Source: a virus. From it: a stretch of 43,906 bases of DNA. Positions 2,969 to 41,021 of the stretch are shown here, in pieces. A model generated the notes under the pieces. It saw nothing but the letters and a program-made list of their open reading frames with translations, did no database searches and was not told the DNA's origin. Position 1 is the first letter of the stretch. Every line of letters begins with the position of its first letter. Made by a program: the position numbers and the translations under genes. The stretch covers positions 7,948 through 51,853 of the IMG/VR virus record IMGVR_UViG_3300030106_003838; one strand, written 5' to 3'.

Positions 2969-3243
2969 TATTCACCACATTTTTTTGATGGATCATCTAC
3001 TCTTCTCCAGTCTTCTTTTTGAAACCAGTCTCTTAATGTAGCACCTTTTTTACGTGCTCCTTTAACATTTGTTTTAGATGATCTTTTATATTTACCTTGA
3101 GCACCAGCCGCTCGTTTAGAGCGAACAAGCTCTTGTCTTTTTTCTTTACTTAAGCCACGTATCTTAGCTGCTGGTAAACAAGTTTTAGTTGTACCACCGC
3201 CTTTTTGTTTTTTAAATGGGTTTGATTTCTGTATATAAGCCAT
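2968..3243 (-). CDS. Tagged basic protein, class B, with TLRDWFxKEDW motif
   Basis: This 91-residue protein starts MAYIQKSNPFKKQKGGG. It continues with KTCLPAAKIRGLSKEKRQE and a C-terminal module GATLRDWFQKEDWRRVDDPS followed by KKCGE. A LxxWFxxxW(V/R)xVDxP...CG pattern is known in small phage proteins that co-occur with the preceding Cys/Trp module, so the two genes may act together. It overlaps the PAP2 gene stop by one base at 3243 and the next gene start at 2968. No catalytic motif is seen. A structural, metal-binding or cargo role is possible. Confidence 0.85.
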   Translation of the reverse strand: MAYIQKSNPFKKQKGGGTTKTCLPAAKIRGLSKEKRQELVRSKRAAGAQGKYKRSSKTNVKGARKKGATLRDWFQKEDWRRVDDPSKKCGE

Positions 3244-3785
3244 TACACTTTATCCTTTACATGTTGATACATTGCTTCACCTAGTTTTTCGCCCATTATA
3301 CTATCAGATTTATAATGAGCCTTAGCTGTTCTTCTACTATCAGATATTTTTTTACCAGCTTTAATAAACTGCTTTGATGCTTTAGGAAACTTATCTGCTA
3401 GTATTCTACCTATTAATATACCTTGAGTTGAATGTCCACTAGGATATGAAGGTGTTTTCATAGAACTCATTTCATAGTCCTGCATGTTAATACCTAACTT
3501 TTTAGCTATAACTTTAGGTCTAGGTCTATTGAAATGTTTTTTTAATTTAGTTACTATAGGTGCAGATTTTTTTATTAAATCGCCAACTAACTTAGAGTCA
3601 TAGTTTGTTATATTATTTTTAGCAGCTATATCAGCAAACGTTTTTTCTATATTATCATACCTTTGAACAGATGTTTTATTCATGGGTATAGTATTAAGTT
3701 GCTTTACCTCCTGCATTGTATTAAAAGAATTATCAGAAGGCGGTTTTATGTTTTTAAACTTATCTATATTAAAACCTTTAAACAT
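3243..3785 (-). CDS. PAP2-type (class A acid phosphatase fold) phosphatase, soluble
   Basis: The 180-residue protein carries the complete three-part PAP2 active-site signature: K80-x6-R87-P88, P115-S-G-H118, and S150-R-x5-H157-x3-D161. In the family the two His residues act as nucleophile and acid/base, and Lys/Arg bind phosphate. Unlike many PAP2 lipid phosphatases there are no transmembrane helices and no signal peptide, so it should be cytoplasmic or packaged. Substrates could be phospholipid head groups, nucleotides or sugar phosphates. The gene overlaps its upstream neighbour by 8 bases and lies in the midst of tagged basic-protein genes; its own start, MFKGFNIDKFKN, is basic but does not carry the tag. 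Enzyme class is confident, substrate unknown. Confidence 0.9.
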   Translation of the reverse strand: MFKGFNIDKFKNIKPPSDNSFNTMQEVKQLNTIPMNKTSVQRYDNIEKTFADIAAKNNITNYDSKLVGDLIKKSAPIVTKLKKHFNRPRPKVIAKKLGINMQDYEMSSMKTPSYPSGHSTQGILIGRILADKFPKASKQFIKAGKKISDSRRTAKAHYKSDSIMGEKLGEAMYQHVKDKV

Positions 3786-5533: not shown

Positions 5534-5941
5534 TTATTGAAATTTATTTAGTATTATTGTATCAATAGAATTTTGTATAACTTTTTTATCAGCTTCCAAT
5601 TGAAACATAATGTTTGCGTTAAACCTACATTTTTCCACACCATTGTCGAATATAACAATTGTAGGTATAGCTGTTATATTGTACTCAGCCTGTAAATCAG
5701 AGCAATGCATTATATCAACTCTATATTTACTAGCTTCTTTTAATTTATTTATTTCTTCAAATTGATTTTGTTTATTCCAATCAGCCCAAAATTCTACCAC
5801 AGAAATATCTTTAGCTATTTTACTATCAAAGTTGCTAACAGTAATAACCTCTTGAGCTAAACCCATTGCTGTGCCAAGAAAATATATAATTACTATAGTA
5901 GCAATATAAGCCCAAGTTGTAATGTCTATTCTTTTTTTCAT
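5534..5941 (-). CDS. Membrane-anchored thioredoxin-fold protein lacking the CxxC cysteines
   Basis: The 135-residue protein has an N-terminal hydrophobic helix (about residues 9-29) that can act as a signal anchor, then a thioredoxin-like domain. The signature positions are clear: VVEFWADW (48-55) and the cis-proline loop AIPTIVIFDNG (91-101). The expected WCxxC after the Trp is replaced by N56-K-Q-N59, so both redox cysteines are Asn. Two other Cys (80 and 105) are outside the active site. It is therefore unlikely to be an oxidoreductase and may be a binding or chaperone module, for instance a decoy of a periplasmic thioredoxin. Its ATG overlaps the stop of the upstream coiled-coil gene by one base. 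Confidence 0.85.
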   Translation of the reverse strand: MKKRIDITTWAYIATIVIIYFLGTAMGLAQEVITVSNFDSKIAKDISVVEFWADWNKQNQFEEINKLKEASKYRVDIMHCSDLQAEYNITAIPTIVIFDNGVEKCRFNANIMFQLEADKKVIQNSIDTIILNKFQ

Positions 5942-10882: not shown

Positions 10883-13800
10883 TTATTGATGAGCATAACA
10901 CTTCTTATTTTTATTCTCTGTTTTATTCTTACATCTTTTGCCATTAGATTTTATAGCAGTGCATCTATATTCTTTTAATCCATCGCCATCTCTATCCATA
11001 CCATCTTTAAACTCCATGTGATGTGTGCATAAGAATTTCTTATCTTTAGTATAGTCTGACATTATCTTGCATCTCTCACCGTTTGATCTTACACCAGAGC
11101 ATCTAATCTTTTTAAAACCCCTTTTCTGCATATCCTTTTCTTCATCCTCTTTCTTCTTACGCCTATCCTCTATTCTTCTATCGTTTATGTTTTTCTTAAC
11201 ATCTTGTTTAGCTTGTTCTAACTCCTCGTCTTTTATACCTAATGACCACATGTCCCAACCCAAAGCTAGTGCTATACGCTGCCATGTTTCATGTTGACTT
11301 GTTATAGCTTCTTCTAAATTATTTGCCTTTCTAACTAGTCTTTGTAGTGGTATATTAGTTGCAGCTTCTATTATACTAGCTAAAGCATATAACTTAGGGT
11401 TCTCTATTCTAAAACCTATCTCATCACTAATTTCGTCCATATTATAAGACTCTGTTTTAATAGCTGAATATATTTTTCTAAGCTTACTACCAATAGGTGG
11501 AGAAAAGTTTAATGCTTCTAGTATTATTCTACCGTCATCTCTTCTACCATAACCTTTTTCTTTTTCAACCTGCCATCTAAGTATAGTATTTTTTATTGCC
11601 GCAACAGCAGCTCCATACATACCCGTACCTCTTAGTAGAGAGTCGAAAGCAGAGTTTAATGTTCTTTTAGCTTTATCATCTATAACTTCTTCGTCTTCCT
11701 CATCACCCCACATCATGAAAGCCAAAGCACTTTGTAGTGATGCAAATATAATATTTTGTACAGCACCATAATATATAACCTTAGATATATTAGTTTTCAT
11801 ATCACCTCTTCCGTTTACTATATCAGACAGTGACTTCTTCATTAAACGCGTGTACTGCATTGTAACGTTTTGAAAAGCTAAAATTAATCTACCTAAAACA
11901 CTAGCTTGTTGTTGAGATATTAAATCCTCTCTTGAAGACTGTTGTGTTTCTTCAGCTATTTCTTGAAAGTCAAGCATCGCTTTATCTTTAGCTTGAGCCT
12001 CAGTCATACCTTGTTTTATGTAGGTTTTTATTCTATTTCTAATAAAAGAAGCACCACCAAATGCTATAGCAAAACTATCTGCTATTTGGGTGGGTGTAAA
12101 ACCCTTTTCTAGTAACCAGTTTATAACAGATTGCGGTGTTCCTCTACCGTCAGAAAAAGCTCTTGAAAGCTCTGATGCTGATACATCTATTTGTATACCA
12201 GCTCTTCTTTGTTTTAACTGAGGTGAGTTAAATAACATAGCAAAGTCAGACCAAAATTGTTTTTGATTAGCAAACGCAGCAGATGCTTTAAATATATTGT
12301 TATCACTCCAGTTAATAAAGTTAACAGTAGATATAGTTTGAAGTATAGCAGATCTCATATTAAAAAACATAATAGCACCTATAGAGCCATTTATCCAGTT
12401 TAATAATCTATTAGAGTTTCTATCATATATTCTGTTTCTATTTCTACCGTTTTCCATACGGTATAATATGTTTTCTAGAGCTTCTTTAAAACCAGTTCCA
12501 TACAGAGCTTCTATTTTATTCATATTTTCTGTAGTAAAAATAGCTTCAACGTTCGCTAAGTATTCTGCTAAAAATTGTTTTCTACCAACCTTGTTTACAA
12601 CATTATTTAAATCAGTTGCTATAGTTTGTATACTCCAATTATTACCAGGTTTAACATAACCGTCTTTAGTCTGAGTTATCGCACTCAATATATCAGCAAA
12701 GTTTCTTACTTCAGTGTTATTTGTAACGTAATCATTTAGTATGTTTTCAGTTGCAGCGTCTAATCCAGGTATTTCAAAACCAGCTTTTTTCCATAAATAT
12801 ACTCTTATCGCAGCATCAACAGTAAACGTTGTTCCAGGAACCTTATCGTTTAAAGACTTAGTTACATCTTTAAAATCTTTCTTCAATTGTTTATACTCAT
12901 TAACCATGTTTTGTTTATAGATATTCCAAGATCTTATTCCTTTAGCAAATGGATCTAAAAGATTATCTTTAAACCACGCCATATGTTTATCACCTTGTTT
13001 TCCTTTTCCTAAAAACCTATATAGCAAACCTTTGAAATCTTCAGCTGATGGTGGAACAAAAATTCTCCACCAACCCTTATTTCTACCTAGTCTTTTTGCT
13101 TCAGCTTGAGAAATTATCCTATCAGCATCTGTACCCTGTGACTCTTCAATTATTTTATTAAATTCTTTACCAGCTGTTTTACTAAATTTAACCTTTGCCT
13201 GAACAACGTCCGATTTAACGTCTAACTGATCAAGAACTTTTTTGACAGCTTCAACATTAGCTAAAGCATCATCAACGAAGTACATGTCATTATAACCTTC
13301 CGCAAACTTCTCTAAGAACCACTCTGCCTTAGCGTTACCAGTACTATTAGCTAGTCCAGTTATATTTTCTATAGGTATATTTAAGCCTTGCGATTTTAAA
13401 AACTCTTGTATAGCTTTAGCAGAAGCTTGAGGCCTAGCAGTTAAAATATACATGTCTTTAGTTCCAAACTTTTCAGCTCTTTGTTTAGCTTTGTCTAACA
13501 GTGGACCAGGCATACCTTCAACAACATCGTTAAATTCTGAAAAATCAAACTCACCTCCTTGTTCTAGTATAACACTGCCTTGCTCAGCAAATTCAGCTGC
13601 ATCTAATCTTCTCTTTTCATAACTAAAAACAAAATCATTCATCTGCTCTATAAGCTCTGTTGGCATGGGACTATCCATTGTTAAGTTATCTGTATTAACT
13701 TCCATGAACCTTTTTCCAAACATATCTTTAAATGTAGATTTATTATTTTGTACAGACTCGTGGTTACGTCTAACAATAACATCAAGTAACGAACGTTCTT

Positions 13801-16800
13801 TTCTAGCTCTATTACGCTCTAAGGCTACATCTAATGAAGTTTCTACAAATACCATGCTAACATCATATCCTTTAGCTTCAAACTCTTCTACGAGCTTTTG
13901 CATTTGCTTTGCTGATCCACCTGTGCCATCAACTACAACTCCATTTCCATTGCCTTGAAACTTCATCATTTTTCTTCTAGCAATACCTCTAGCTTGATGA
14001 CCTAATTTACCCAATAAACTTCTTTGTTCTTTTGTTAGTTCATTCATATTTTCAGGTAAACCATGGTTTTTCTTTAGCCACTCCAATGATATATCTTGGT
14101 TAACTATTTTAAAACCCATACCCTCTAAGCCTAACTTTTTAATAATATTGCCCTTGCCACTTCCAGCACCACCAGCTAAGAATATAACTTTTTTACCTGG
14201 TTTAGGTTTACCATCATTGTTTGGTATAGTAACTCTAACTCCAGACTTAGTGTAAGCCATTGTGTCGTCAAAATCAAACGTTGACATACCTGTTTTTTTA
14301 CCACTTTTACTATACTTAATTTGGTTAGCTATAGCGCTGTTATAAGTTACAATAGACTTAGATCTTTTTACGCTTTCTAAATGTTTACCCGTTTTAGATA
14401 AAGCGTCTACACCGGATTTATCTAAAATGTCTATGTCTGATTTGCTAGTTATTTTATCTACAACTGGTATAGCTCTGAGATTAATATTAACATAACCTGT
14501 TTTTGTTGTTACCTTTTTTACAGTTTGTTTTTGGGAAGACTTAACTTGTCTTATAGGTACACTAAATGTACCTTCTAATCTAGGAACACCAAGGTTTAAA
14601 ACGTCACCACCTATACTAAAAAGTCCTTTACCTAATATGTATATGTAGTTAGTCGGTACAGCTTTGTTTAAGTAAAAGTTTTCTATTAGTGTTTGAGTAA
14701 ACGTAGCTCTTTGTGTTAATCTACTCCAATATCCTTCTGCTTTTAATACACCGTGAGCCCAGTTTGGCATAAAACTTTTTGGACTATTCCAATTTTTTAA
14801 ATAATTTATATCTTGCTTTGTTATAGACTTAGGTATTTTTATTTGTTGATTTCTTGGTAACTTTTTATTTGCTTGTCCTATTAAAGATATGATATCTTCT
14901 TTGCTCATTGAAGACATTTCTTTGGCTCTAGATTGCACATCTTTTAAAACTGGAACTATTTTTTTTGCTATTTCTTTTATTTTGTTTTGGTTTTCTTGAG
15001 ATAAATTATCTATTTTATCTATTATAATTTCACCGGTTTTCAAATTAACATCGTTAATCGACAGACTACCAACTTGAGCATCAAACATTTTAACTTCAAT
15101 ATGAAAGTCTTGACCGTGAAACTTAGCGTAAACATCTGGTATATCAACACCTTGTTCTGATTGATATTCAAACACAAGATCCACTCCTTCTATCTTACCA
15201 AACCTGTCAATAACATACTGTTCAAATCCCTTCGTTCTAGTGTCACCAGCTGGAACTAGTTTAGATAATTTTTTTAATATATCTCCAGGGTGTAAAGATA
15301 TTTTATTGTTTTCATAAAAGTTTTTTATCACAAAGTTTATAGTACTAGAAGGTATATCCGTATACTCATTAATCCCCACATAATTTCCTTTACTATTTAA
15401 CTTAGCTATACCAGTTAAATCACCTTGAGCTGATATAGCATTTACTAAGTCTACACCATCTTTAAATACTTTAGAACCAGCAGAACTAGCACTAAATTTA
15501 ACTCTAGGATCTCTATTTATTTGTTTAGCTATAACTGCTAATTCGTTGACAGCTTGCTCTTGTCCTTGTAACTGTAGTATGCCTCTTCTTTTTTCTTGAA
15601 CATCAGGCATCTGCACAGTTTCAGCTGTTGCATCAAAAGCTAATTCAACACCTATTTCCATAGCTAGTTTATCTTTTCTAGTACCAAGAGTTGAAGCACC
15701 AACCTCATACCCTAATTCCTGTAACATGTTAGTTCCCCTAAAAAAGGCCATTACTTTTGCTTGACCAGGATATGGATTTTTTATATGTAATTGAGGTCCG
15801 GATAACCTATTAGTGTCTTTAGGTAATAATCCTTCACTTATTAATTTATCAACTTCTACTGGCTTAGTTACTCTTTTTGATTTAGTAAATATTCTTTGCT
15901 CTGGCTTAACAGACCTTTCCATTTGAACTAATGTTTCAACTGGTAAAGCGTTATATACAGCTTCAAAATTATTTTTTAAAAACTCATTATAATTATTTCT
16001 AGAACCTATTAAATCTTGTATGGTTTTTTTAAGTTCTGTTCTAAATCTTTTTTGAAGCTCATCTTTAAATTTTTTAGTATTAACATCTGGTAGTTTAGTA
16101 CCAAAAGTTTTTATAACAGCTCGACGAACTTTGTCCATCATTTCCTTACCTAAATTCAACCTTCTTCTAAGCTCAGAGTACATATCTTGCTGTTTGTCAT
16201 CTAAACCTATTTGATCTATAAGATCTTGTTCTAAGGAAGTATCAGCTTCTACTTGAAAAACAAGAGCACCCTCACTGGTTCTAGCGTCAATATCTTGAGT
16301 TCTTTGTGTTACTTTGTATTCTCTATTATATACGTTACCAGCTTTATTTGATATTTGAGAATTAATCCAACCAAATAAACTATCATTTATTTCTGGATTA
16401 AAGTTTTTAATATGAGGAGTTAATTCAGCTAAAACCTTTTTAACAAATTCTTTTGTTCTAGCTGGTGACATTGGTACTTTTAATTTAGCTGCTATTAATC
16501 TATCTAGTAAACTTTCTTCTTCTATTGTCTTAACAGCAAAAACGTGCCCTACGGTTTTCCAACTAACATTATCCCAACCATATTCAGAACCTATTTCATT
16601 AATTATGTTTTCGGCCTCTGTTTTAGAACGTTTATCCTGAGTTTCTTGAGTTTCTTTTGGATCAGCTTTTTCACCAAGCTTACTTTCTAATTTAGTTTTT
16701 AAAACTCGTCTTTTAGTTATTTGACCAAACAAACCCTTTCTATTAACATGCTCTGTATATGTTTTTATAAAATCAAATATTTGTTGCCCTGTATTCAATT

Positions 16801-19504
16801 CAACAGAACCAAGACCAAGACCAGTAAACATATCTTTAAAGGCTTTTGATAATGTTTTAGGACTAGCATCTGGTAAAGGCATTTTATTTTTCTTTATAAT
16901 ATCACTTAACATTTGAAAATATTCTTCCAAAGCTCCAGGTTGAAACTTACCGTCTCTACTTAAATACCCGTTTTGTATTAATCTTTTATCTATACGATCT
17001 ATTATAGCTTTACCTCTTTCAGTAGTACTTAAAAAATCTTTAAGAGCATCTACCATTTTCTTCATAGAAGCATTATCTACCTTAAAGTTTTTAGACATCA
17101 TGTAGTGAAGTAGCTCGTGGCCTAAAACATTTGTTTGACCAACAGCCGCCGCAGCAACAGTGTTCACATATATAACACCATCATTTGATAAAAACAAACC
17201 CTCTTCACCACTGTATTTAATATTTTTTTCCTCAAGTTCTTTTTTAGCAGCCTCTATTTGTTTTTCATTGTTTAAATATTTTATTTTTAAATCACTACCA
17301 AAACCTAAAGTTGCTGCTTGTTTTTTAATTTCAGCTAAATTTTGAAGAAATTCACCAATAGCTTTTTCCGTTGACACATCGACAAATCCATCTGTTAAAC
17401 TATTTTGCTCTTCTAATATTTGATCTATACGTTTTTCTACATCCTTCTTGTCCTTAACAGACATTTTAGTATTTAACAAACCTAGTTCTTTACTTAAAGC
17501 GTCTTGTTTTTTAGCATAATTAATCAGCTCTTTATTTGTCATACTACCAAAAGCAGTCTCTAATTGCTGATCGTGTAAAGTGTTTTGTTTGTTTAATCCT
17601 TTTAATTTGTTTTCAAAATAATTTTTCTCTTGGCCTTTAGCATTTTTTAGTTTTAACTCTGTTTCTATTATGTCGTTTTGAATCTTTGACTTTTTTGTTT
17701 TCCACTTCATAGAAGCTATAGCCATTTGAGCTTGTTGTTTAGTGGGTTTATTAACAACTTCCATAGTACTAGAAAGACCACCACCTAGTACACTACCTAT
17801 TAAAAAACTATTAACACCATTTCTCCAAAAATCTTTAAAACCAACTTCATCACCATAAATATGCTTATCTGTAGCATCTTGCATTACACTGGTGAAAGAT
17901 TCAGATAAACCTTCTGATAAAGAACCTCCTATGTAACCTGCTATAAATCTTTTCGTATAACTATCAGTAAACGCTTTAACCGTTTTCTTAGCAGCTCCGC
18001 CACCAAGTAGACCGCCACCCGCTCTAAATAACATTGCTCCAGCAAACTCTCCAGCCCACTCAGCACCAGCTTTCATAAAAGATCCTTTTCTTAATAGTGA
18101 CGCTTCTTTATCTGTAATAATTATACCTTTATCAATATATAATCTTTCTAAATCAGCTACCATTTCTTGTCCGTACACGCTACCACCTAATATACCAGCT
18201 CCAATTGCAGCACCTGCAGGTCCAAACGCTAATCCACCACCAACACTAATTGCTAAACTAGGGATTTGAGCTATAGACTGTTCAGCTAGTAAAGTTGCAG
18301 CATCTCCAATTCTACCAGTTTGTATAAGATCTTTTGGAGTCATCACTCCACCTTGCTCATCGAAATGTTTTGTAGCAAATTGATTACTTATTTTATTAAA
18401 GTCTTTTTGAATTAAATGCACAGGAGATATGTCGCGATCTTCAACCATTTCTTCAATTGTCTTTCCCTGCTTAGCACCTTCAAGTATACGTTCACTCTCA
18501 ACAGCGGATATTAATCCAGTAGTTATATTTGACGCTACACCCGCATATCCCATACTAGCATTCATAATTAATCTACCAACACCAGTATTCATCATAAATT
18601 TAGTTTGCAACCTGTAAAATAAAGGAACATCTTCAAGATATTCGTCAAAACCTGGGCTTATGAGTTCCATGTTTTCTAAGGCTTCAGCGTACTCATCTTT
18701 ACCCAGCATACCATCTTCATATCTTTTTTTATAATCTTTTACTATATCATTATGAGTAGCTTGCTTCATGTTTCTTTCTGACTCTGTTAATTCAAATAGT
18801 TCTTTTGTTTTAGGATTATAACCATGAGTACCATCTTCTACAACTTTTTTTCTTACATCACTTCCGTAACTAGCATTTATATCAAACCATTCTTTGGCTG
18901 TATTATAAGTTAGTATTTGATCTGGAGTACTAGATATAAACTCTGCTTTTTTATCTCTAGCCCTCTTTGACATTTTATCTATATCTTTAAATTCCATGTC
19001 ATAATCAGGTAGTTCGTCACTTAGTTCAATGTTTTGAAACCTACTATCAACAAGTGAATAACCTATTGGATTGTTAGATATTCTAGGATTATCTTTGTTG
19101 TAAATATTATTATACCCCTTAATGTTATTATTTAATATTTCATATTCAACTTCATATTCTTTTAATATAGAATTGTAGTTGTTTACTAAATTATTATATT
19201 TTTCAGGGTTTTCATCACCATCAATAGATTTCAACTGTTCATTAATAGAACCTAATCTCTCCTCATACTGATTGTCTAATATTTTCTTTTCAGACTGCTT
19301 TATTTTAGCTGCAAGTGATTCCAAAGAACCATCTTCCAAGTTGGATTCCGTATTTGTTTGTTGATTTGTTTGAGGCTGGCCCGCCTCTTTCGACTTTCCC
19401 GGCACTGTAGATTTTATTGCCGTTGGATTATTTTTTAAAAAATACTCTTCGTATTTTGGCTCAATCTTCACGACTTTACCATTTAATATATATTCTATTT
19501 TCAT
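10883..19504 (-). CDS. Giant polyvalent internal virion protein (2873 aa) with peptidase, nuclease, kinase-HAD and zinc-knuckle segments
   Basis: This is probably injected with the DNA. Visible parts: hydrophobic Gly-rich segments (about 400-580) that could cross membranes; H796-E-L-L-H800, a zinc-peptidase motif; a PD-ExK nuclease-like core with D1457 and E1470-V-K1472; a HAD motif D1744-F-D1746-D-T; then a P-loop GGAGSGKG with Lys1784 followed by zeta-toxin/polynucleotide-kinase-like sequence (VNQDISL, VVVDGTGG, ALERNRAR); then HAD motifs ILTARP (Thr2022) and FVDDAL (D2078-D2079). So the kinase is inserted inside the HAD domain. A long helical region with FFNMRSAILQTISTVNF is typical of marine phage giant proteins. 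The last 72 residues hold two zinc knuckles (Cys2802/2812/2826/His2828-2829; Cys2848/2858/2869/His2872). It follows two gp14/gp15-like genes, the place of T7 gp16. Each activity is motif-based. Confidence 0.9.
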   Translation of the reverse strand: MKIEYILNGKVVKIEPKYEEYFLKNNPTAIKSTVPGKSKEAGQPQTNQQTNTESNLEDGSLESLAAKIKQSEKKILDNQYEERLGSINEQLKSIDGDENPEKYNNLVNNYNSILKEYEVEYEILNNNIKGYNNIYNKDNPRISNNPIGYSLVDSRFQNIELSDELPDYDMEFKDIDKMSKRARDKKAEFISSTPDQILTYNTAKEWFDINASYGSDVRKKVVEDGTHGYNPKTKELFELTESERNMKQATHNDIVKDYKKRYEDGMLGKDEYAEALENMELISPGFDEYLEDVPLFYRLQTKFMMNTGVGRLIMNASMGYAGVASNITTGLISAVESERILEGAKQGKTIEEMVEDRDISPVHLIQKDFNKISNQFATKHFDEQGGVMTPKDLIQTGRIGDAATLLAEQSIAQIPSLAISVGGGLAFGPAGAAIGAGILGGSVYGQEMVADLERLYIDKGIIITDKEASLLRKGSFMKAGAEWAGEFAGAMLFRAGGGLLGGGAAKKTVKAFTDSYTKRFIAGYIGGSLSEGLSESFTSVMQDATDKHIYGDEVGFKDFWRNGVNSFLIGSVLGGGLSSTMEVVNKPTKQQAQMAIASMKWKTKKSKIQNDIIETELKLKNAKGQEKNYFENKLKGLNKQNTLHDQQLETAFGSMTNKELINYAKKQDALSKELGLLNTKMSVKDKKDVEKRIDQILEEQNSLTDGFVDVSTEKAIGEFLQNLAEIKKQAATLGFGSDLKIKYLNNEKQIEAAKKELEEKNIKYSGEEGLFLSNDGVIYVNTVAAAAVGQTNVLGHELLHYMMSKNFKVDNASMKKMVDALKDFLSTTERGKAIIDRIDKRLIQNGYLSRDGKFQPGALEEYFQMLSDIIKKNKMPLPDASPKTLSKAFKDMFTGLGLGSVELNTGQQIFDFIKTYTEHVNRKGLFGQITKRRVLKTKLESKLGEKADPKETQETQDKRSKTEAENIINEIGSEYGWDNVSWKTVGHVFAVKTIEEESLLDRLIAAKLKVPMSPARTKEFVKKVLAELTPHIKNFNPEINDSLFGWINSQISNKAGNVYNREYKVTQRTQDIDARTSEGALVFQVEADTSLEQDLIDQIGLDDKQQDMYSELRRRLNLGKEMMDKVRRAVIKTFGTKLPDVNTKKFKDELQKRFRTELKKTIQDLIGSRNNYNEFLKNNFEAVYNALPVETLVQMERSVKPEQRIFTKSKRVTKPVEVDKLISEGLLPKDTNRLSGPQLHIKNPYPGQAKVMAFFRGTNMLQELGYEVGASTLGTRKDKLAMEIGVELAFDATAETVQMPDVQEKRRGILQLQGQEQAVNELAVIAKQINRDPRVKFSASSAGSKVFKDGVDLVNAISAQGDLTGIAKLNSKGNYVGINEYTDIPSSTINFVIKNFYENNKISLHPGDILKKLSKLVPAGDTRTKGFEQYVIDRFGKIEGVDLVFEYQSEQGVDIPDVYAKFHGQDFHIEVKMFDAQVGSLSINDVNLKTGEIIIDKIDNLSQENQNKIKEIAKKIVPVLKDVQSRAKEMSSMSKEDIISLIGQANKKLPRNQQIKIPKSITKQDINYLKNWNSPKSFMPNWAHGVLKAEGYWSRLTQRATFTQTLIENFYLNKAVPTNYIYILGKGLFSIGGDVLNLGVPRLEGTFSVPIRQVKSSQKQTVKKVTTKTGYVNINLRAIPVVDKITSKSDIDILDKSGVDALSKTGKHLESVKRSKSIVTYNSAIANQIKYSKSGKKTGMSTFDFDDTMAYTKSGVRVTIPNNDGKPKPGKKVIFLAGGAGSGKGNIIKKLGLEGMGFKIVNQDISLEWLKKNHGLPENMNELTKEQRSLLGKLGHQARGIARRKMMKFQGNGNGVVVDGTGGSAKQMQKLVEEFEAKGYDVSMVFVETSLDVALERNRARKERSLLDVIVRRNHESVQNNKSTFKDMFGKRFMEVNTDNLTMDSPMPTELIEQMNDFVFSYEKRRLDAAEFAEQGSVILEQGGEFDFSEFNDVVEGMPGPLLDKAKQRAEKFGTKDMYILTARPQASAKAIQEFLKSQGLNIPIENITGLANSTGNAKAEWFLEKFAEGYNDMYFVDDALANVEAVKKVLDQLDVKSDVVQAKVKFSKTAGKEFNKIIEESQGTDADRIISQAEAKRLGRNKGWWRIFVPPSAEDFKGLLYRFLGKGKQGDKHMAWFKDNLLDPFAKGIRSWNIYKQNMVNEYKQLKKDFKDVTKSLNDKVPGTTFTVDAAIRVYLWKKAGFEIPGLDAATENILNDYVTNNTEVRNFADILSAITQTKDGYVKPGNNWSIQTIATDLNNVVNKVGRKQFLAEYLANVEAIFTTENMNKIEALYGTGFKEALENILYRMENGRNRNRIYDRNSNRLLNWINGSIGAIMFFNMRSAILQTISTVNFINWSDNNIFKASAAFANQKQFWSDFAMLFNSPQLKQRRAGIQIDVSASELSRAFSDGRGTPQSVINWLLEKGFTPTQIADSFAIAFGGASFIRNRIKTYIKQGMTEAQAKDKAMLDFQEIAEETQQSSREDLISQQQASVLGRLILAFQNVTMQYTRLMKKSLSDIVNGRGDMKTNISKVIYYGAVQNIIFASLQSALAFMMWGDEEDEEVIDDKAKRTLNSAFDSLLRGTGMYGAAVAAIKNTILRWQVEKEKGYGRRDDGRIILEALNFSPPIGSKLRKIYSAIKTESYNMDEISDEIGFRIENPKLYALASIIEAATNIPLQRLVRKANNLEEAITSQHETWQRIALALGWDMWSLGIKDEELEQAKQDVKKNINDRRIEDRRKKKEDEEKDMQKRGFKKIRCSGVRSNGERCKIMSDYTKDKKFLCTHHMEFKDGMDRDGDGLKEYRCTAIKSNGKRCKNKTENKNKKCYAHQ

Positions 19505-22113: not shown

Positions 22114-23601
22114 TTAAGATGTTGTTACGTGGTCGTCTAAGTTTAAATTCATTGTTACACTAGCGTTTCCAAAGCTAATTATTATAAATTTAAAAGTTAT
22201 ATTTAAATTATTATTTCCATTACTTCTTGTTGCTGCTATTCTAGTCATTTCTACTTTGTTATTTCCATTAGAATCACCAGCTGCAGAGTTTGTCCACGAA
22301 GACGCTGAATTATCTGTACTTGACCAATTTATTGTAGATGGAGCATTAAATGTATGACCGCCATTAGTTGTTAAAGGTATATCTATAGAGTTGTAACTTA
22401 ACACACTTTTATTATGTTTCAACTCTGCTGCTCTAGTGTTAGGTCTTCCAGTGAACTGCATTGTAGGAACAGCTGTTGTAGTTATTCTAGCGTTACCAGT
22501 AGAAACAGTAAGCGTTATTGTTGGATTAGCTAATTGAGTTATAGTATATTCTGTAGTCACACCAGACGCGATAGACGTTCCATCTTTAGGAATTATAGAA
22601 ACACTATAAGTACCTGTTCCAGATGGAAACGTTTGATTATAATAACAATATCCTAAGCCAAAAGATTTTGGACCGCGTATTTTCTTGGTAAAAGCATCGA
22701 TAGTACCAAATGACGAAGTTAATATACTATCATTTTTTCTACTTAATATAGAAGAGCTATCACTATCTTTTATAGCAATAATACTAAACTCAGCATCATT
22801 TGTACCTTGCACCTTTATTGTTTTATCACCACCTAAACTAGATAATTGAGTTGAATTTATTCTAACACTTGTTATTAATTTACTTGTTGAACTGATAGGT
22901 GTAGCAGTATATTTTAAGTCTATATCAGAAGTGTTAATATCTACGTTTGCTTTAGCTAATACGTCAAAGTTGTATGCTGTTTTTTCTCCATTTGAATTTA
23001 CTGTTGTACTAGTAGTTTTTATTACTATGTTTTTATAATCATTATTATCATCATAAAATAAATATGGTTTAGATCTAAAATAATAATTAGTACTAGCTGT
23101 AATGGTTAACGTCCCTATTTTTGTTAATATATTATTAGTTAATGTAGCAGAAATAGAAGTTGTTGTTATATTATTAACAGGTGAAGAAGTTGTAAAAGTG
23201 TAACCACTGTTTGCTGTAAAAACAATCGAGCCAAAGGTATTTTTATTTGTATCGTTTTTTATACTAGATTTAAATGAAAATGTTTTAGTTTTTTCTGTAA
23301 ATACTTTTGCGTCACCAACTATATCAAGAGTTATATCAGTATTTTCGCTAGCAACAAAACTAGAGGCAAATGTAGCTAATCCAGTAACAGTATTACCAAT
23401 AGCGCCAGCTGTAGTTGTATCTGTAAAAACAACAGAAGCAATACTACTTGGTAAACTTGAAACAGAAAAATCAGACGCAGACACAACATAACCATCGTTT
23501 GGAGTTATAGTAATACTTCCAGACGTAACCATATTATTAAAAAATATAGAGTCATTTTTATTTTCTGTCGTACTAAAGCCTGTTAATGTATAATTAGCCA
23601 T
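22114..23601 (-). CDS. Beta-rich tail appendage protein (495 aa)
   Basis: The product starts MANYTLTGFSTTENKNDSIF and is dominated by Thr, Ser, Asn and alternating hydrophobics, consistent with stacked immunoglobulin-like or fibre-type beta domains (for example TITPNDGYVVSASDFSVSSL and SIVFTANSGYTFTTSSPVNN). No catalytic motif is seen. It overlaps the 2206-residue tail gene by 8 bases and is therefore a late tail component, possibly a side fibre or an adhesin contacting the host surface. Confidence 0.75.
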   Translation of the reverse strand: MANYTLTGFSTTENKNDSIFFNNMVTSGSITITPNDGYVVSASDFSVSSLPSSIASVVFTDTTTAGAIGNTVTGLATFASSFVASENTDITLDIVGDAKVFTEKTKTFSFKSSIKNDTNKNTFGSIVFTANSGYTFTTSSPVNNITTTSISATLTNNILTKIGTLTITASTNYYFRSKPYLFYDDNNDYKNIVIKTTSTTVNSNGEKTAYNFDVLAKANVDINTSDIDLKYTATPISSTSKLITSVRINSTQLSSLGGDKTIKVQGTNDAEFSIIAIKDSDSSSILSRKNDSILTSSFGTIDAFTKKIRGPKSFGLGYCYYNQTFPSGTGTYSVSIIPKDGTSIASGVTTEYTITQLANPTITLTVSTGNARITTTAVPTMQFTGRPNTRAAELKHNKSVLSYNSIDIPLTTNGGHTFNAPSTINWSSTDNSASSWTNSAAGDSNGNNKVEMTRIAATRSNGNNNLNITFKFIIISFGNASVTMNLNLDDHVTTS

Positions 23602-26600
23602 CTGTATCTTCTGTGTTTATAGTTATATCTACTTGATTTTGAGTGTCATCAGTGTTAGCCAAAGGTTTACCTAATCCTTGTACAGCAAACTTACCTAAGT
23701 CACCGGAGTCTTCTGTTGTGGTTGTTGTGTATAAAATAGGAAATTCAGCGTAACTTTTAATATAATTAAACCACTTGCCTTCTTTTTTAATAAACTCATT
23801 AACTTCACCAAGCTCAATATCAGTTTTAAAAGTAGTAACACGCCATCCACTCGTGGCAGATATATTATAGTACTCTGATGTGTCGTCAGTGTTTTGTGTT
23901 ACATTTCCTTGAGATCCTTCGTAATTAATTGCTTTAAAAGATTTAATAACACTTGGTAAATCATTGAATAAAATTTTTATTTTTGAAGGAGCATATACTG
24001 CACCAACATCATAAAAAACATTATGAGAATCACTAGCGTAATGCTCATAGATACTATGTGTAACATTAGAAACCTGCTCATTAGAAGAACCAGTCGAACT
24101 TGACCACCACCTGTAACCTGATGGTGCAGTTAAATATTTACCACTAATAGAAACACCTGTTGATGGAACAAAGCTTTTAAAACTAACCCAACCCTTACTA
24201 CCTTCGTTAAATGAAACAGTAACGTAGGGACTATCATAACTAGCATTAGCGTCTTTTCTTAATAAAGATAAATTATACTCGCCATTAACAGTATCAAAAG
24301 TACCTACTAGATTATCACACGTTTTTAAGTTATTTCTAAAATACGTTTTCATACCCACGTTTGATATAGGTGTTAGTCCGTCCATTGATAATCTTAGAAC
24401 AGCGCCTCTTTGCATGTCAGTAAAATACATTCTATATTGATCACTAGCTAATGACTCTGGGTTTTTAGATATACCGTAGTCACCAGCAAAGGGCGTTGCA
24501 TCTCCTAAAACTCTATTTGTTGCAACAAGTTGCGGATTACCATCTGCATTAAATACAGCATCTTTATTGGCTAGAACTTTTAATATTTTATCTTCTGTAA
24601 ATGTTACTATATTGTTCTCTCTAGTTTTCATGGCTTGTATAGAACCGTAGGCTGGATTTAAATTTTTAGTAATTTTCTCAGCCATGTTAAATTCATTTAA
24701 GTCATTAACACTAGATGTTGAATTGTAAAGACCAGAGTGTATTATACCACTACCTATTCTTTCTTCACCATACTCTAAAAACGTAGAAGATACTCTACAT
24801 CCATTATCTATTTGTGGAGCATTAAAATCATCTCGTATTCTATCTGACTCAACACCGTTACCAAATGAATAACAATTAAACCAAGGTAACTTAACTGGAT
24901 ATTTCCAAACATCATCATCTATTTTAAATATACCAGTAACATCAACGTATTCCACTTCTAAAACAGTATCATTATTGAAACCACCAATAATAGGATTATT
25001 AAGTGCTACAAGTAAAAATGTGCCATTTGCTGAATTAAAATTTCCAATTTGTATAAGCTGAGTTCCAACAACAAATGTTCCAGGTATAATCATGTCTTCA
25101 AAAGCTGGAGAAGGAATAACATTCATACCTGGTCTTATAGGATAATTTTCTAAATTATTAGGCTGATAATCTCCAGGCATTAATGTAGCTTGACCATTTA
25201 TAGTTGATAAATTAACAGTTGTAAGAGAATTAAGACCAGTACCATATATAAGTATCGCGTTACCGTTATTATTTTCTGATGAAGGATTAATAGCTGACGT
25301 ATCAGCTATATTAAAACTTTGAAGCGTTGTATCACCATCAATAAGACTATTGTTGTTTGGCGGTAAACTAACAGGACCATATCTATCTGATAACTGTAAA
25401 GATTCTCCATTTTCTGAATCAAAATCATACACTATTTTATAGTGATCTAGTATTTTACTTTTAGTTTCAAAACCATTTGATCTTCTAAAACATATAGTGT
25501 CTCCAGTTGAAATTAAATTTAAACCATCAGTTGTGTTAGGTGATATAACACTAGAGCTCATACTATTGTTATTTTGATTAATAGAGAAGTTACTATGAAC
25601 AATAACGCCATCATCTCCAATTGTTCTAAAAGCAAAAGCATCTCCATCGAGATTAATATACTGCATGACTTGATTTAACATCCTAGGTTTTATATAAACT
25701 TGACTTGCAAAATTACGATTTGCATTAGAACCCACAAACTCCATTATGTTTAACATATTTAATTTCATAGGTATAGCAGAACTAGCCTCATAGTATATAT
25801 CTAAATCCGCGCTTTCTTTTGGTTCAGTTTCCCAACATGAAGACTCTGTTACAACATCATCTTGACTTAGCTCGCCCTCTGATGATCTTTGTACTATTTG
25901 AATTTGAAAAGAACCAAGGCCATCATGTGTTACTTCTCCTCTAGGATCAAATCTTTCAACATCTATTCCTGAACCCTCAACAACTTGACCAAGACTATCT
26001 ACTCTAGCAAATCTAACAATTATACTAGTTCTAAAACCAGCAATATTATCATATTGATTCGCACTGTCACCAGAGTTTTGAAATTTAGATGTCTTATAAT
26101 AATTCCATTGAAGCATTGATCCGTTAAGACCATTGGCTTCAGTACCTATGTTTATTGGACCTTTATGTCTATGATTACCCTCTGATGTGTAAGATTCCAT
26201 TGCAGCTTCATCATCATAAAGTGATGCTGAAGCGGTTTCAAGATAAGTTGTTAGGTCCTGAGAATTACTAAGAATTCTATAAACAATTTGATCTGGATCT
26301 GCTGCAAATCTAAACAAAGTGCCTGGTTGTTGTATTTTAGATTTAAATACAATATCAGAACCAGGTCCAAATTGATTTGTTTGGTTGTTAGTTATTGGTT
26401 GATCAGATACTGATGAAAAAGTCATTTGACCAAAAAGTCCATCATTTGCATACCCTTGAGATAATCCAGCTGGTTGGTAGTTTGGGTTAATATGAGATAT
26501 GCCAGGTCCACCATCACTTAAAAATTGAGAGTTCCACTCCATGTAGTCGTTAGGTCCCCAAATTTGTTCTCCAAATTTATAACTTATTGGAGTATAACCT

Positions 26601-29600
26601 CCACCATACCCAGGCATTAAGTTACCGTTGTAATAACCTGATGCCCCATCAAAACCGTAGTTACCACTACTTTGGTTTTCACTACCATTATTAACCCAAA
26701 GGCTCAATGCTCCAATCATGTCTTCGTGGCCAGCAGCCGCTGGTGCATTATCTAAAAATATATTAGTTGATTTATTTTCATTCCAGTCTTGCCAAAAAGC
26801 TTCAGTTTTTTCATAGTCACCAGGTCCAAAAGCAGGAACACTACCTTGATCTGCTGCAACAACCTCAATACCAGGGTAATTTTCTACGTAAGGGTATATA
26901 TTGTTGCTACTCACGTCTAAATCTACAACTTCATTTGTGCCAGCAGTTGCAACATTATTTAAATTCAAATTATCACTAGGTGACACCATTGCTTCAACAG
27001 CACTTCCAGAAAAAGCATTATCTGTTGGCCATGTAAAATCTTTTTGTGACCCACTTACCGCTGGATTTGTATTTGAATTTGATATGTAAGCTATATCAAA
27101 AGTATCTACTATAGTATAATCTAATGGACCTTCATTTAAAACTCTATCTCTTAGTGTTTGATCTTTTTGAATTTTAACAAAAAATCTACCGTCAAACTCA
27201 GGAAGATTATTTGTTTGCTCGTCCATGTATTCTAAATAATAGTAAATGTAATCATCATTTGCAGTACCTGCCTCATCGTTATCATCAACGTTTGTTACAT
27301 TTATTTCAGCTTCTAATCCAGCATCTGCTAACACGCTAGATAACTTGAGAAACATATTTACCTCTTCATTTGTAAATTTTTCAGATATTACACATCCATC
27401 ATCTTTAATCTGTGTAACAGATTTATAAGGACTAAATGCTTCAAAAGGCTCATCACTGCCATCTGGTGTGTAAACACCTACTATTCTAACTTTTTTTCTA
27501 CCTTTAAAATCACCTCTAGCAATGTTATGAGTCTCTGTGGTTGCTATAGTAGAATTATTTATCAGCTTATCAGGAACACCTGTAATTTCATCAGTAGTAT
27601 TAGCTGTATATATATTATTTCTATTTATTTCTATTCTATCAAACTTTCTTCTTTCTAGTTTTATAAAATCAGGAGCTTCATTTTCTATTGCTAGTATTTT
27701 ATATCTAGCTTTATCAAGAACAGCAGCTTGACTACCATGTTCGTTTTTTAGTATTAAATAGGTTTCTTCATCAACTTTATTTCTATCTACAGAAGGAAAA
27801 GCTAACCATATATTACCATCACCAGCATTGTACCATCTATCTAAAATTAAATTGTAGTATTCACTAGATGTTTCTTTTACATAATACTTAACATAATCCA
27901 TCCAAGGTAAAGGCTGTGAGTTCCAGTTTTGCTGTAATTCAAATTTATTAGAAAACGCAGATAGTTGTTTAGCTGTAGACGCCGTACCTGTTATTGTTTC
28001 ACCAGAAGATGTTTTATAACTACTAGCTAGTACAGGTGTTTCTCTACCATACTTATCACCAAACACCATACCCCACTTATAAGATCTCATAGATTTAACA
28101 GATTTTTGCGGGTTTGGAAAATCCACTGGGTCAGATATAATTGTTTGTTTTAAACCAACAACAGTATCAATATCATAACCTTGAACGTAGTTGGCGTATA
28201 CTACTCTACTTGCTGTAACTTCTTGAGCTAACGCAAATCTTGGAACGTTATCCCAGGTTCTTAATAGTTGATTTGCTGGTAGAGTTCTATTAATCATTTC
28301 AGAAGTTATGCTTAAAGAACCTGTAGATTCAATAGAGTTGTTGTCTACAAAATCTTCCCACTCGTCATCTAATTCTCTAGTTATAGTTTTAACAACATAA
28401 ACATTTTGATCGTCTGTTGTTTTCCATAGTATATCTATAGACCTAACGTCATCTGGCCTATAAGAGTTATTAGGTATAAAATCTCTAACCTTAAGTCTTC
28501 TAACACTATTACCCATACCTTCATTATGACCAGTACTCGGCGTGTATGAAAAACTATCTGGTAAAAAAGCTAATTCTGACCAAGGTGAAAATGCTGAATA
28601 TTCGTTGTCTTCGTATTTGTATCTATATGCAAATCTTCCAAATTTAGTTTCAAATAACGCTGCTGGTTGCTGTATTGTTACAGTCCATTGATCCGGATTA
28701 AGCTGCTCTAACATTGGATCAATAACAGTACACTTTATTCTATGCCACTTAAACTGATTAGATACCGCGTCTGCAATATCTGTTTCTTCAACAGTAGCTT
28801 GCACAATTACTGGATTTGAAAACCCAAATTGAATACTTTCAAATATTAATATATCGTTTAACCTAACATCTACCTGTGATGGAAATTTAACAACTCTTTC
28901 AGAGCCTACACTTGCCACAACATCATCAGAAGGTATTTGAAATATATTTTCTTCGGCTATTGACTCATAACCACTTTCGTTAAAATCAACATATGTTTCA
29001 GTATAGTTTATAAAACCACCAAGTTGATAATCTTCACCATTAGTATCTGTTATGATTTCAGGGTATTGTATATCAAACTCTATAGGACCTTCTCTATCTG
29101 ATGGACTCATTTCTAACGTTGGTGGTGATGTTGGTTTCTTTCTTATAACCGTAACGTGTTCTTTTTCTACATCACCATGAGCATCAACAGATGAACTTAA
29201 AGAGGTATCATTATAGTTTTCAACTTCTGTTACGTTAACTAATTCACCTTGCGCGTTTTTAACAAAAAGTTTAGTATGCTTAGGATCTGTTAGGTAATTA
29301 TCTTGAATACTACCTAATTTAGATCTTGTTATATTTATTTTTTTAGGTTCACTTTTATTATCTGTGTAAAATAATAAATCATCAATAACATTAACAGAAG
29401 AACTTATTAAACTATCATAGTCAAACTCTAAAACTCTTTCTTTGTGAATTAGTTTTACAACTATATTTTGAGTTTCAGTTTCATTAAAGTCACTAGTACT
29501 AAAATCAATAGATTGTCCAAACTCAAGTAAAACTTGGTTTCCATTAATATTTATAATTTCAACACCAGCAGTTCCATTGCTATCGAATAAATAATTGGTT

Positions 29601-30214
29601 GTAGCTCCACCACCTGAAGGAGTTCTTTGAATAAAAAGCCTCATACCAATTCTAGCAATAGGTGCGTTGAATGTTATTGAGTTGAAAGGTGTCGTAGAAC
29701 CATTTAAAGCGTTAAAGTTTTCTTGTGTGATATAGTTTATAATTTGGCCAGTTCTACCAAAATAATCTACAAAAACAACTTCTGAATCAGTGCCATCAGC
29801 ATTAACTTGGATTATGCTGTCAACCCACCTTACATCTGAATCTTCAACCGGAGAAGTTAGATCAGCTATCGTGCTAGGTTCAATATTTTCTAGAGCACCT
29901 TTTTTAGCTCCAGCTTGCTGTGGAGGTAAAGGTGCTGCAGCAAAAAAATAAGCACAGTCATTTTTTTCATCAGCTACACTAGCTATGATTTTAGTTTGAT
30001 TACCATTATAACCTACAGTTTTATATGCTTCAGCTATTTTTGTGTTACCTTTTATATTCTGTACTGAACCAGCGTCACCAACACCATCGCTATCGCCATC
30101 AGTGGTTCTAACTTGTATGTTTAATGCATCTCTATATTCACCGTTACGAACTAATCTTTCATCAAGATCTTTGTTCATTTTACCGGCTGTAAAGTTGTGT
30201 TTAATTTCCGGCAT
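23594..30214 (-). CDS. Large tail protein (2206 aa), probable tail nozzle/hub (gp12-like)
   Basis: The N-terminus (residues 5-60) reads HNFTAGKMNKDLDERLVRNG, EYRDALNIQV and later GSVQNIKGNT, which matches the GGMN.D.(D/N)...L..GEY..ALN(I/V)....G...N..GN opening of podovirus nozzle (tail tube B / P22 gp10-like) proteins in marine phages. The later C-terminal region (about 1850-2200) contains RMYFTDMQRGAVLRLSMDGL and other beta-propeller-like strands found in the same group. In between lie beta-rich domains. It is three times longer than T7 gp12 (794 aa), so it may have absorbed additional fibre domains. It follows the two connector genes with a 2-base gap. Confidence 0.8.
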   Translation of the reverse strand: MPEIKHNFTAGKMNKDLDERLVRNGEYRDALNIQVRTTDGDSDGVGDAGSVQNIKGNTKIAEAYKTVGYNGNQTKIIASVADEKNDCAYFFAAAPLPPQQAGAKKGALENIEPSTIADLTSPVEDSDVRWVDSIIQVNADGTDSEVVFVDYFGRTGQIINYITQENFNALNGSTTPFNSITFNAPIARIGMRLFIQRTPSGGGATTNYLFDSNGTAGVEIININGNQVLLEFGQSIDFSTSDFNETETQNIVVKLIHKERVLEFDYDSLISSSVNVIDDLLFYTDNKSEPKKINITRSKLGSIQDNYLTDPKHTKLFVKNAQGELVNVTEVENYNDTSLSSSVDAHGDVEKEHVTVIRKKPTSPPTLEMSPSDREGPIEFDIQYPEIITDTNGEDYQLGGFINYTETYVDFNESGYESIAEENIFQIPSDDVVASVGSERVVKFPSQVDVRLNDILIFESIQFGFSNPVIVQATVEETDIADAVSNQFKWHRIKCTVIDPMLEQLNPDQWTVTIQQPAALFETKFGRFAYRYKYEDNEYSAFSPWSELAFLPDSFSYTPSTGHNEGMGNSVRRLKVRDFIPNNSYRPDDVRSIDILWKTTDDQNVYVVKTITRELDDEWEDFVDNNSIESTGSLSITSEMINRTLPANQLLRTWDNVPRFALAQEVTASRVVYANYVQGYDIDTVVGLKQTIISDPVDFPNPQKSVKSMRSYKWGMVFGDKYGRETPVLASSYKTSSGETITGTASTAKQLSAFSNKFELQQNWNSQPLPWMDYVKYYVKETSSEYYNLILDRWYNAGDGNIWLAFPSVDRNKVDEETYLILKNEHGSQAAVLDKARYKILAIENEAPDFIKLERRKFDRIEINRNNIYTANTTDEITGVPDKLINNSTIATTETHNIARGDFKGRKKVRIVGVYTPDGSDEPFEAFSPYKSVTQIKDDGCVISEKFTNEEVNMFLKLSSVLADAGLEAEINVTNVDDNDEAGTANDDYIYYYLEYMDEQTNNLPEFDGRFFVKIQKDQTLRDRVLNEGPLDYTIVDTFDIAYISNSNTNPAVSGSQKDFTWPTDNAFSGSAVEAMVSPSDNLNLNNVATAGTNEVVDLDVSSNNIYPYVENYPGIEVVAADQGSVPAFGPGDYEKTEAFWQDWNENKSTNIFLDNAPAAAGHEDMIGALSLWVNNGSENQSSGNYGFDGASGYYNGNLMPGYGGGYTPISYKFGEQIWGPNDYMEWNSQFLSDGGPGISHINPNYQPAGLSQGYANDGLFGQMTFSSVSDQPITNNQTNQFGPGSDIVFKSKIQQPGTLFRFAADPDQIVYRILSNSQDLTTYLETASASLYDDEAAMESYTSEGNHRHKGPINIGTEANGLNGSMLQWNYYKTSKFQNSGDSANQYDNIAGFRTSIIVRFARVDSLGQVVEGSGIDVERFDPRGEVTHDGLGSFQIQIVQRSSEGELSQDDVVTESSCWETEPKESADLDIYYEASSAIPMKLNMLNIMEFVGSNANRNFASQVYIKPRMLNQVMQYINLDGDAFAFRTIGDDGVIVHSNFSINQNNNSMSSSVISPNTTDGLNLISTGDTICFRRSNGFETKSKILDHYKIVYDFDSENGESLQLSDRYGPVSLPPNNNSLIDGDTTLQSFNIADTSAINPSSENNNGNAILIYGTGLNSLTTVNLSTINGQATLMPGDYQPNNLENYPIRPGMNVIPSPAFEDMIIPGTFVVGTQLIQIGNFNSANGTFLLVALNNPIIGGFNNDTVLEVEYVDVTGIFKIDDDVWKYPVKLPWFNCYSFGNGVESDRIRDDFNAPQIDNGCRVSSTFLEYGEERIGSGIIHSGLYNSTSSVNDLNEFNMAEKITKNLNPAYGSIQAMKTRENNIVTFTEDKILKVLANKDAVFNADGNPQLVATNRVLGDATPFAGDYGISKNPESLASDQYRMYFTDMQRGAVLRLSMDGLTPISNVGMKTYFRNNLKTCDNLVGTFDTVNGEYNLSLLRKDANASYDSPYVTVSFNEGSKGWVSFKSFVPSTGVSISGKYLTAPSGYRWWSSSTGSSNEQVSNVTHSIYEHYASDSHNVFYDVGAVYAPSKIKILFNDLPSVIKSFKAINYEGSQGNVTQNTDDTSEYYNISATSGWRVTTFKTDIELGEVNEFIKKEGKWFNYIKSYAEFPILYTTTTTEDSGDLGKFAVQGLGKPLANTDDTQNQVDITINTEDTDG

Positions 30215-40220: not shown

Positions 40221-40489
40221 TTTGATCTACCTTCTGCAAAGCCTTTAAATGTTGTTTCCTTTTTTTCTTCTACCTTACCTTCAAGCATATTCTCTTCTTC
40301 ATTTATACGATTAAGTATTTCAAAAGCATCGAATATAGCTAGCTTTTTAGTAGCAGCTGCATTTTTTAATCTGTCAGCTGATATATCGTCGTCTGAATCA
40401 ACAATAGGTTCTTTAGCTACTTTAATTAATTCTTCAACCGCTTTTTGCCCAGCTTGGATTATACTCTTCTTCGTTTTCTTTATATTCAT
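40217..40489 (-). CDS. Probable terminase small subunit
   Basis: The 90-residue protein (MNIKKTKKSIIQAGQKAVEE) has two helical segments: IIQAGQKAVEELIKVAKEPI and ADRLKNAAATKKLAIFDAFE with ILNRI, then a charged linker (EENMLEGKVEEKKETTFKGF). The motif (S/L)AD(R/K)LKNAAATK(K/R)LAI.DAF.IL is recurrent right before terL in marine phages and I take it as the DNA-recognition subunit. It is short compared with many TerS (130-180 aa), which fits this lineage. It overlaps the upstream GroES-like gene by 56 bases; no later ATG gives a sensible product, so the overlap is real. Confidence 0.75.
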   Translation of the reverse strand: MNIKKTKKSIIQAGQKAVEELIKVAKEPIVDSDDDISADRLKNAAATKKLAIFDAFEILNRINEEENMLEGKVEEKKETTFKGFAEGRSK

Positions 40490-41021
40490 ATTTAATTGTA
40501 ATAAATTTATTCATAACCCTATATAATCTTTCTCCATTAACGACAAACTCGTATTCCATGCTAGGTGCAAAACCAACTAGCTCTTCCTTATTAAAGCTAC
40601 CATCAGAGTACTTGATAATACCAATTAGTGGTCTTTCTATTTCTACATCTAAGCTATCAATAGACTTTAGCGGTTTAACAAAACTATAACCAGGCATAGC
40701 AGACCAATCTTTTTTTTTATATAAATATATTTGATCTTGTGATATTATATACTTGTCTTCTTTAAAATAAGATCTACTATTCTTTTCTCTACCCTTCATA
40801 TCGTGCCATCTTCTAAAGACATTGTGATGTACTATTACTTCATCACCTACGTTTAAAGGTGATTGAAACAATAGTGGAGTAGCGATTATCTTTGCAAGTC
40901 TGTTTATATATTGATGATTAAATATTTCAGTGTTTAATATCAACTCTTGTTCTCCAACCTGTACACTATTATTATAGCGATCACCCACAGGAGAAACAAT
41001 ATAATCTTTATATGCATTCAT
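40434..41021 (-). CDS. GroES/co-chaperonin-like protein
   Basis: The 195-residue product contains features resembling phage GroES/gp31-like folds: GEQELILNTEIFNHQYINRL with AKIIATPLLFQS, then NVGDEVIVHHNVFRRWHDMK, a mobile segment (GREKNSRSYFKEDKYIIS), DQIYLYKKKDWSAMPGYSFV and a final KPL. The GD.VIVHHNVFR and D.IY.YK..W...P.Y.FVKP strings match proteins that I recall annotated as co-chaperonin GroES in Flavobacterium phages. Such proteins help the host chaperonin fold the capsid subunit. It is the gene just before the terminase genes. The C-terminus extends beyond GroES length (about 100) and the assignment is medium confidence. Confidence 0.75.
   Translation of the reverse strand: MNAYKDYIVSPVGDRYNNSVQVGEQELILNTEIFNHQYINRLAKIIATPLLFQSPLNVGDEVIVHHNVFRRWHDMKGREKNSRSYFKEDKYIISQDQIYLYKKKDWSAMPGYSFVKPLKSIDSLDVEIERPLIGIIKYSDGSFNKEELVGFAPSMEYEFVVNGERLYRVMNKFITIKYEYKENEEEYNPSWAKSG

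Follow-up and report, generated by a model that had tools for sequence, protein, structure and literature searches.

A P-loop kinase predicted to interrupt a HAD-type phosphatase in giant proteins of related phages

In phage T4 Pnkp (PseT), a close described counterpart of the module reported here, a P-loop kinase and a HAD phosphatase lie side by side in one chain, the kinase first, and R38 of the T4 kinase is essential. In Clostridium thermocellum Pnkp (CthPnkp) the kinase is joined not by a HAD domain but by a metallophosphoesterase and a ligase domain. Among HAD enzymes, the turn of the flap hairpin is the known insertion point of the C1 cap, and cap-less members usually go with macromolecular substrates. 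We know of no described HAD whose C1 cap is a complete kinase; the literature searched contained no report of a kinase inserted in a HAD domain, and a PDB profile search gave no chain matching both the kinase and the HAD parts. Two further groups of phage proteins are relevant for the chain as a whole. Phage polyvalent proteins are very long multi-domain chains encoded beside virion genes (Iyer et al. 2017, PMC5512222), and the proteins encoded after the muzzle gene of crAss001 include virion cargo, which was detected in virions and modelled as ejected (PMC10172136).

The giant protein and its gene cassette

The window (the whole stretch of 43,906 nt that was analysed) carries genes for terminase, portal, other virion proteins and a muzzle-like protein that are related to those of Cellulophaga and Flavobacterium phages. 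Positions 10883..19504 are a single reading frame of 2,873 aa, open throughout and read on the minus strand from 19504 to 10883. Its product is a giant phage protein of modular build, which is probably packaged into virions and then released in the host. The features of this protein and the start of its gene cassette are as follows.

23594..30214, minus strand: muzzle-like tail protein, 2206 aa, start of the cassette (PF25729, 27.4 bits, cut-off 27)
10883..19504, minus strand: giant ORF, candidate virion cargo (ejection) protein, last gene of the muzzle-to-giant cassette
17705..18607, minus strand: Gly/Ala-rich hydrophobic N-terminal region, about residues 300-600
17105..17119, minus strand: HEXXH (HELLH, residues 796-800), zincin-like motif; 8/8, no Pfam match
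15089..15157, minus strand: PD-(D/E)xK-like nuclease motif, residues 1450-1472; 6/6, no Pfam match
14222..14290, minus strand: HAD N-terminal part, residues 1739-1761, with motif I (DFDDT) and strand 1 of the flap hairpin
13622..14221, minus strand: inserted P-loop kinase, about residues 1762-1961
13199..13621, minus strand: HAD C-terminal part, about residues 1962-2102, with flap strand 2 and motifs II, III and IV
11138..13093, minus strand: conserved C-terminal region, residues 2138-2789; no Pfam family
10886..11137, minus strand: two Cys-Cys-Cys-His knuckles, residues 2790-2873, at the C terminus

The motifs named by the initial annotation were all found at the residues it gave, on an ORF of the minus strand. 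Its proposal that HEXXH and PD-ExK motifs share the chain with the kinase and phosphatase stands as far as presence and conservation in a few relatives go: HEXXH is kept in 8 of 8 relatives having that region, with E861 likewise conserved, and the set E1450, D1457, E1470 and K1472 in 6 of 6. It does not extend to a family assignment, as no Pfam family backs either motif and the support is at motif level. With the full protein as query, Pfam detected the kinase alone (Zeta_toxin 3e-9, AAA_33 6e-9) and not the HAD domain, and a single-sequence search of the PDB gave no matches. Relatives vary strongly outside the HAD domain and the C-terminal region; because the N-terminal part of the giant protein is variable across the family, HEXXH and PD-ExK do not constitute a fixed toolkit. 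The conserved C-terminal region is present in most relatives, with or without a kinase. The terminal knuckles (C2802, C2812, C2826, H2829 and C2848, C2858, C2869, H2872) are conserved in 35/36 and 40/40 relatives; their occurrence in about 40 relatives would be compatible with a packaging or targeting tag.

The gene order muzzle, 495, 127, 242, 468, giant recurs in relatives whether they have the kinase or lack it. Its position matches gp097-gp101 of phi40:1, all five of which are annotated as structural by MS/MS, and injection of the giant protein is plausible for this reason, although the muzzle-like gp097 alone among the five is clearly homologous to its window counterpart. The N-terminal region of some relatives resembles gp101 (gp101 vs L021, E 2e-12, small database), whereas hhalign of the window protein against gp101 or the Manatee Spring giant was not significant. 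By analogy, packaging and ejection are plausible, and the earlier idea of delivery together with DNA is indirectly supported by the position within a virion-protein cassette, the equivalence to gp101 being mainly positional.

The muzzle-like protein itself shows a marginal match to the crAss muzzle C-terminal domain and is much longer than gp097. Elsewhere, the window holds ribonucleotide reductase, PAP2 phosphatase, thioredoxin and a GroES-like gene (74-1717, 3243-3785, 5534-5941, 40434-41021), and the part of the record outside the window encodes an NT5C-type nucleotidase and a sigma-70-like protein (L258 667-1855).

A kinase between the HAD motifs

HAD motif I (D1744-F-D1746-D-T1748) is parted from motif II (T2022 in ILTARP), motif III (K2059) and motif IV (D2078/D2079 in FVDDAL) by a complete P-loop kinase of ~200 aa. 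D1744, D1746, T1748, T2022, K2059, D2078 and D2079 are each present in 47/47 nested sequences. With 4 rows of spacing 35 (motif-matching errors) left out, motif I and LTAR lie 276 residues apart in 48 nested rows, 274-282 apart in 8 others and 76-79, typically 77, apart in un-nested rows, corresponding to an insert of about 199 residues. The hairpin of un-nested relatives, for example KSDVLYTTPEGKKGKLNAEQFA, appears in the window as KSGVRVTIPNNDGKPKP...kinase...YEKRRLDAAEFA.

An AlphaFold2 model of the nested module (41-sequence alignment, pLDDT 84, pTM 0.71) places strands E26-31 and E232-237 on both sides of the kinase, and the corresponding strands of the un-nested HAD L053 are E25-29 and E35-39; the order of strands and helices in the nested module fits a HAD Rossmannoid core. 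In the models, the kinase occupies the turn between the two strands of the HAD flap hairpin, where C1 caps are inserted. The nesting of a P-loop kinase inside a HAD domain, as initially annotated, is supported by the alignment of nested and un-nested forms together with the models of both. A predicted structure without a HAD fold around the kinase had been named as the outcome that would speak against it; the predicted structure shows a HAD-type core interrupted by the kinase, and the claim therefore held.

The HAD domain is only weakly placed in a family. Of 20 un-nested members, 17 match PHROG 415, annotated as polynucleotide kinase (best E 9e-6), and DUF2608 exceeds its cut-off for one HAD member only. 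Foldseek with the un-nested HAD model, whose pLDDT is under 50 after residue 151, found no significant PDB match. Membership of the HAD domain in the T4 phosphatase family was considered and is unsupported, since hhalign aligns the two at motif I only.

The kinase carries the P-loop GGAGSGKG (1778-1785, with K1784), N1802/D1804, D1859-G-T1861-G and R1897-N-x-x-R1901-x-x-R1904. K1784, N1802, D1804, D1859, T1861, R1897, N1898, R1901 and R1904 are each present in 47/47 nested sequences, and the Walker A Lys is followed by S/T in 27 of the 47 and by G in the other 20, the window sequence among them. The complete conservation of the catalytic residues and the near-constant spacing indicate that the nesting is more than chance. 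P-loop, N-x-D, D-x-T-G and R-N-x-x-R-x-x-R are invariant across nested, tandem and stand-alone kinases.

By structure and by profile alike CthPnkp is the best match, with zeta toxin and T4 Pnk following closely. The top Foldseek matches were CthPnkp kinase (TM 0.74-0.75 on target, E 2e-8), then zeta toxin (3e-7) and T4 Pnkp (7e-7); the kinase profile search gave CthPnkp at 7e-7, zeta at 2e-6 and T4 Pnk at 4e-5, and hhalign to residues 2-148 of T4 Pnk gave E 4e-8 for the pair. In Pfam, Zeta_toxin PF06414 ranks first (37-41 bits, cut-off 22.3). The Pnkp-type Walker A, catalytic Asp (T4 D35) and lid Arg (T4 R126) have counterparts in K1784, D1804 and R1901, but at the acceptor-phosphate Arg (T4 R38) the position three after D1804 is not Arg. 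Judged by sequence profiles and predicted structure, the kinase is homologous to the T4 and CthPnkp polynucleotide kinases.

Empty, nested and tandem forms among relatives

Residues 1735-2110, used as the query against viral contigs, returned 80 loci, 78 of them readable: 46 nested, 2 with HAD followed by kinase and 30 with HAD alone. HAD-only sequences as queries gave 80 loci, nearly all un-nested, and with the kinase as query came further nested forms, a third tandem form (L183; all three have the kinase after the HAD domain) and numerous stand-alone kinases, for the most part 220-300 aa long. These row counts do not equal independent genomes, because some contigs recur in several scans. More than 100 relatives with HAD but without the kinase represent natural empty sites, and in one giant protein (L184) a kinase lies at about 4001, in the place expected for the HAD domain and immediately ahead of the conserved C-terminal region, while no HAD domain can be recognised. 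The nested arrangement is genuine and is found in dozens of related phages. A search for plasmid relatives of the kinase gave none. Giant-protein contigs were also encountered in bacterial and archaeal MAGs (L089-L094: Aliivibrio, Sphingobacteriales, Maricaulis, Ilumatobacteraceae, Woesearchaeota), where they probably reflect mis-binning of phage contigs; two nested copies are present in the Aliivibrio MAG.

Two trees, in neither of which the root is fixed, bear on the history of the insertion. On the HAD tree the nested label requires at least five changes, and on the kinase tree the kinases of giant proteins, the tandem ones included, group in a single clade (98/98) that excludes the stand-alone kinases. 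Both trees would be explained by a single acquisition of the kinase into the protein family with later losses and transfer between HAD backgrounds; related kinases may instead have entered the same hairpin independently. A first tree had suggested L052, L053 and L075 as losses within the nested group, and wider sampling left L075 alone there.

The relatives also show that kinase and phosphatase activities are separable modules, as either is carried alone or both in tandem, and that coupling of kinase and HAD is not essential, as most relatives have the HAD domain without the kinase.

Possible function and comparison with known systems

Of several possible functions, we favour, with a confidence that falls a little short of even, that the HAD domain with its PNK-like kinase in the flap hairpin is delivered by the virion and heals nucleic-acid ends. 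End healing is the best-supported function that we infer and our leading hypothesis, given the PNK-type kinase and the ligase-like DUF6267 neighbours of its stand-alone relatives. A DUF6267 protein adjoins these in 25 of 69 loci (L082:1200-2432 and 18 full-length relatives among L190-L254 are examples), and KxDG, EGxV and KxVDR motifs occur in all 18 full-length proteins; they resemble those of nucleotidyltransferase ligases, which suggests an unrecognised ATP-dependent ligase family. Several observations speak against end healing: the residue at the T4 R38 position is not Arg, Zeta_toxin heads the Pfam ranking, the HAD domain aligns with the T4 phosphatase at motif I only, the un-nested HAD model has no significant PDB match, and most relatives do without the kinase. 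A T4 Rnl1-type RNA ligase, too, was not found in the 51.9-kb record, which is possibly incomplete.

In the process we envisage, a complete PNK-like kinase, inserted where the HAD flap turns, would lie next to the phosphatase active site, and both domains would refold after ejection and act in the host. The kinase would phosphorylate a hydroxyl group at the expense of a nucleoside triphosphate, the HAD domain would strip phosphate, and most likely 5'-OH and 3'-phosphate ends, in host-cleaved tRNA or nicked incoming DNA, would be healed early in infection. We give less weight to a fuller version, where the active kinase serves as a C1 cap beside the phosphatase site, the two form one virion-carried end-healing unit that refolds in the host, and the hairpin slot has gained or lost the kinase several times.

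Unlikely, though ahead of the other alternatives, is a zeta-toxin-like kinase that phosphorylates UDP-N-acetylglucosamine or another small metabolite and so weakens or reprograms the host, the HAD domain being unrelated or counteracting. Zeta_toxin is the best Pfam match and above its cut-off, Foldseek and the profile search both put zeta structures in second place, the DGTG of the kinase resembles the zeta EGTG, BFVD lists a viral homologue under the name UDP-N-acetylglucosamine kinase, and zeta-like kinases are known in polyvalent proteins (PMC5512222). However, the RNxxRxxR lid is of the PNK type, CthPnkp scores higher in both searches, and the stand-alone relatives adjoin ligase-like genes.

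Rather less probable is an action of the kinase/HAD pair on nucleotides or nucleotide signals that, for example, counters nucleotide-based host defence or adjusts nucleotide pools. Stand-alone kinases adjoin cytidylyltransferase-like genes in 23 of 69 loci, an NT5C-type nucleotidase HAD gene follows the stand-alone kinase in Methylophilales phage Melnitz (L083:2944-4243), and virion cargo would act early; yet the un-nested HADs have a short hairpin and no cap, and apart from the P-loop fold the kinase bears no nucleotide-kinase signature. The entry of the insert at the C1-cap site and its nearly constant length would also suit a structural or regulatory cap that gates the HAD domain and is not an independent enzyme, but this is quite improbable, as the catalytic residues of the kinase are conserved in 47/47 sequences and the kinase also occurs outside the HAD domain (tandem) and without one. 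An assembly chimera, conceivable for a metagenomic virus record, or a chance motif match is ruled out by recurrence, with the same junctions in 46 further loci of one scan and with empty and filled sites in many samples.

If end healing is correct, these marine phages would bring nucleic-acid repair with the genome and would not make it after infection, and the activity could therefore meet early host nucleases. The module also illustrates how one folded enzyme can take up a second without being destroyed, with natural before-and-after forms for comparison, and the effect of nesting can be tested directly on the empty, nested, tandem and kinase-only forms.

Among known systems, gp101 of phi40:1 (Pervagoviridae; 1691 aa, a virion protein by MS/MS annotation in which no HAD or kinase motif was noticed) and the crAss001 cargo proteins occupy the same place after the muzzle gene as the window giant. 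The polyvalent proteins share with it the great length, the multi-domain build, the location next to virion genes, a zincin-like motif, a zeta-like kinase and variable domains, while the main text on them, as searched, makes no mention of a phosphatase or an inserted domain (PMC5512222). Zeta/PezT toxins have a similar fold and GTG motif, with PF06414 above its cut-off, and differ in the lid, which is PNK-like in the window kinase; no antitoxin gene was identified. The CthPnkp kinase (4gp6/4gp7) is the best structure and profile match, the RNxxRxxR lid being common to both.

T4 Pnkp likewise combines a related P-loop kinase with a HAD phosphatase in one chain, and P-loop, N-x-D, D-x-T and R-N-x-x-R are conserved, but there the two domains follow one another, whereas in the window the kinase lies inside the HAD domain. 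The resemblance to T4 Pnkp in a different architecture, as initially proposed, is a fair comparison for the kinase half, because the kinases are homologous; it fails for the HAD half, which aligns at motif I only, and at the R38 position, and for these reasons we do not file the module in the T4 Pnkp family. The insert enters at the flap hairpin as in C1-capped HADs, and here the cap is a complete kinase.
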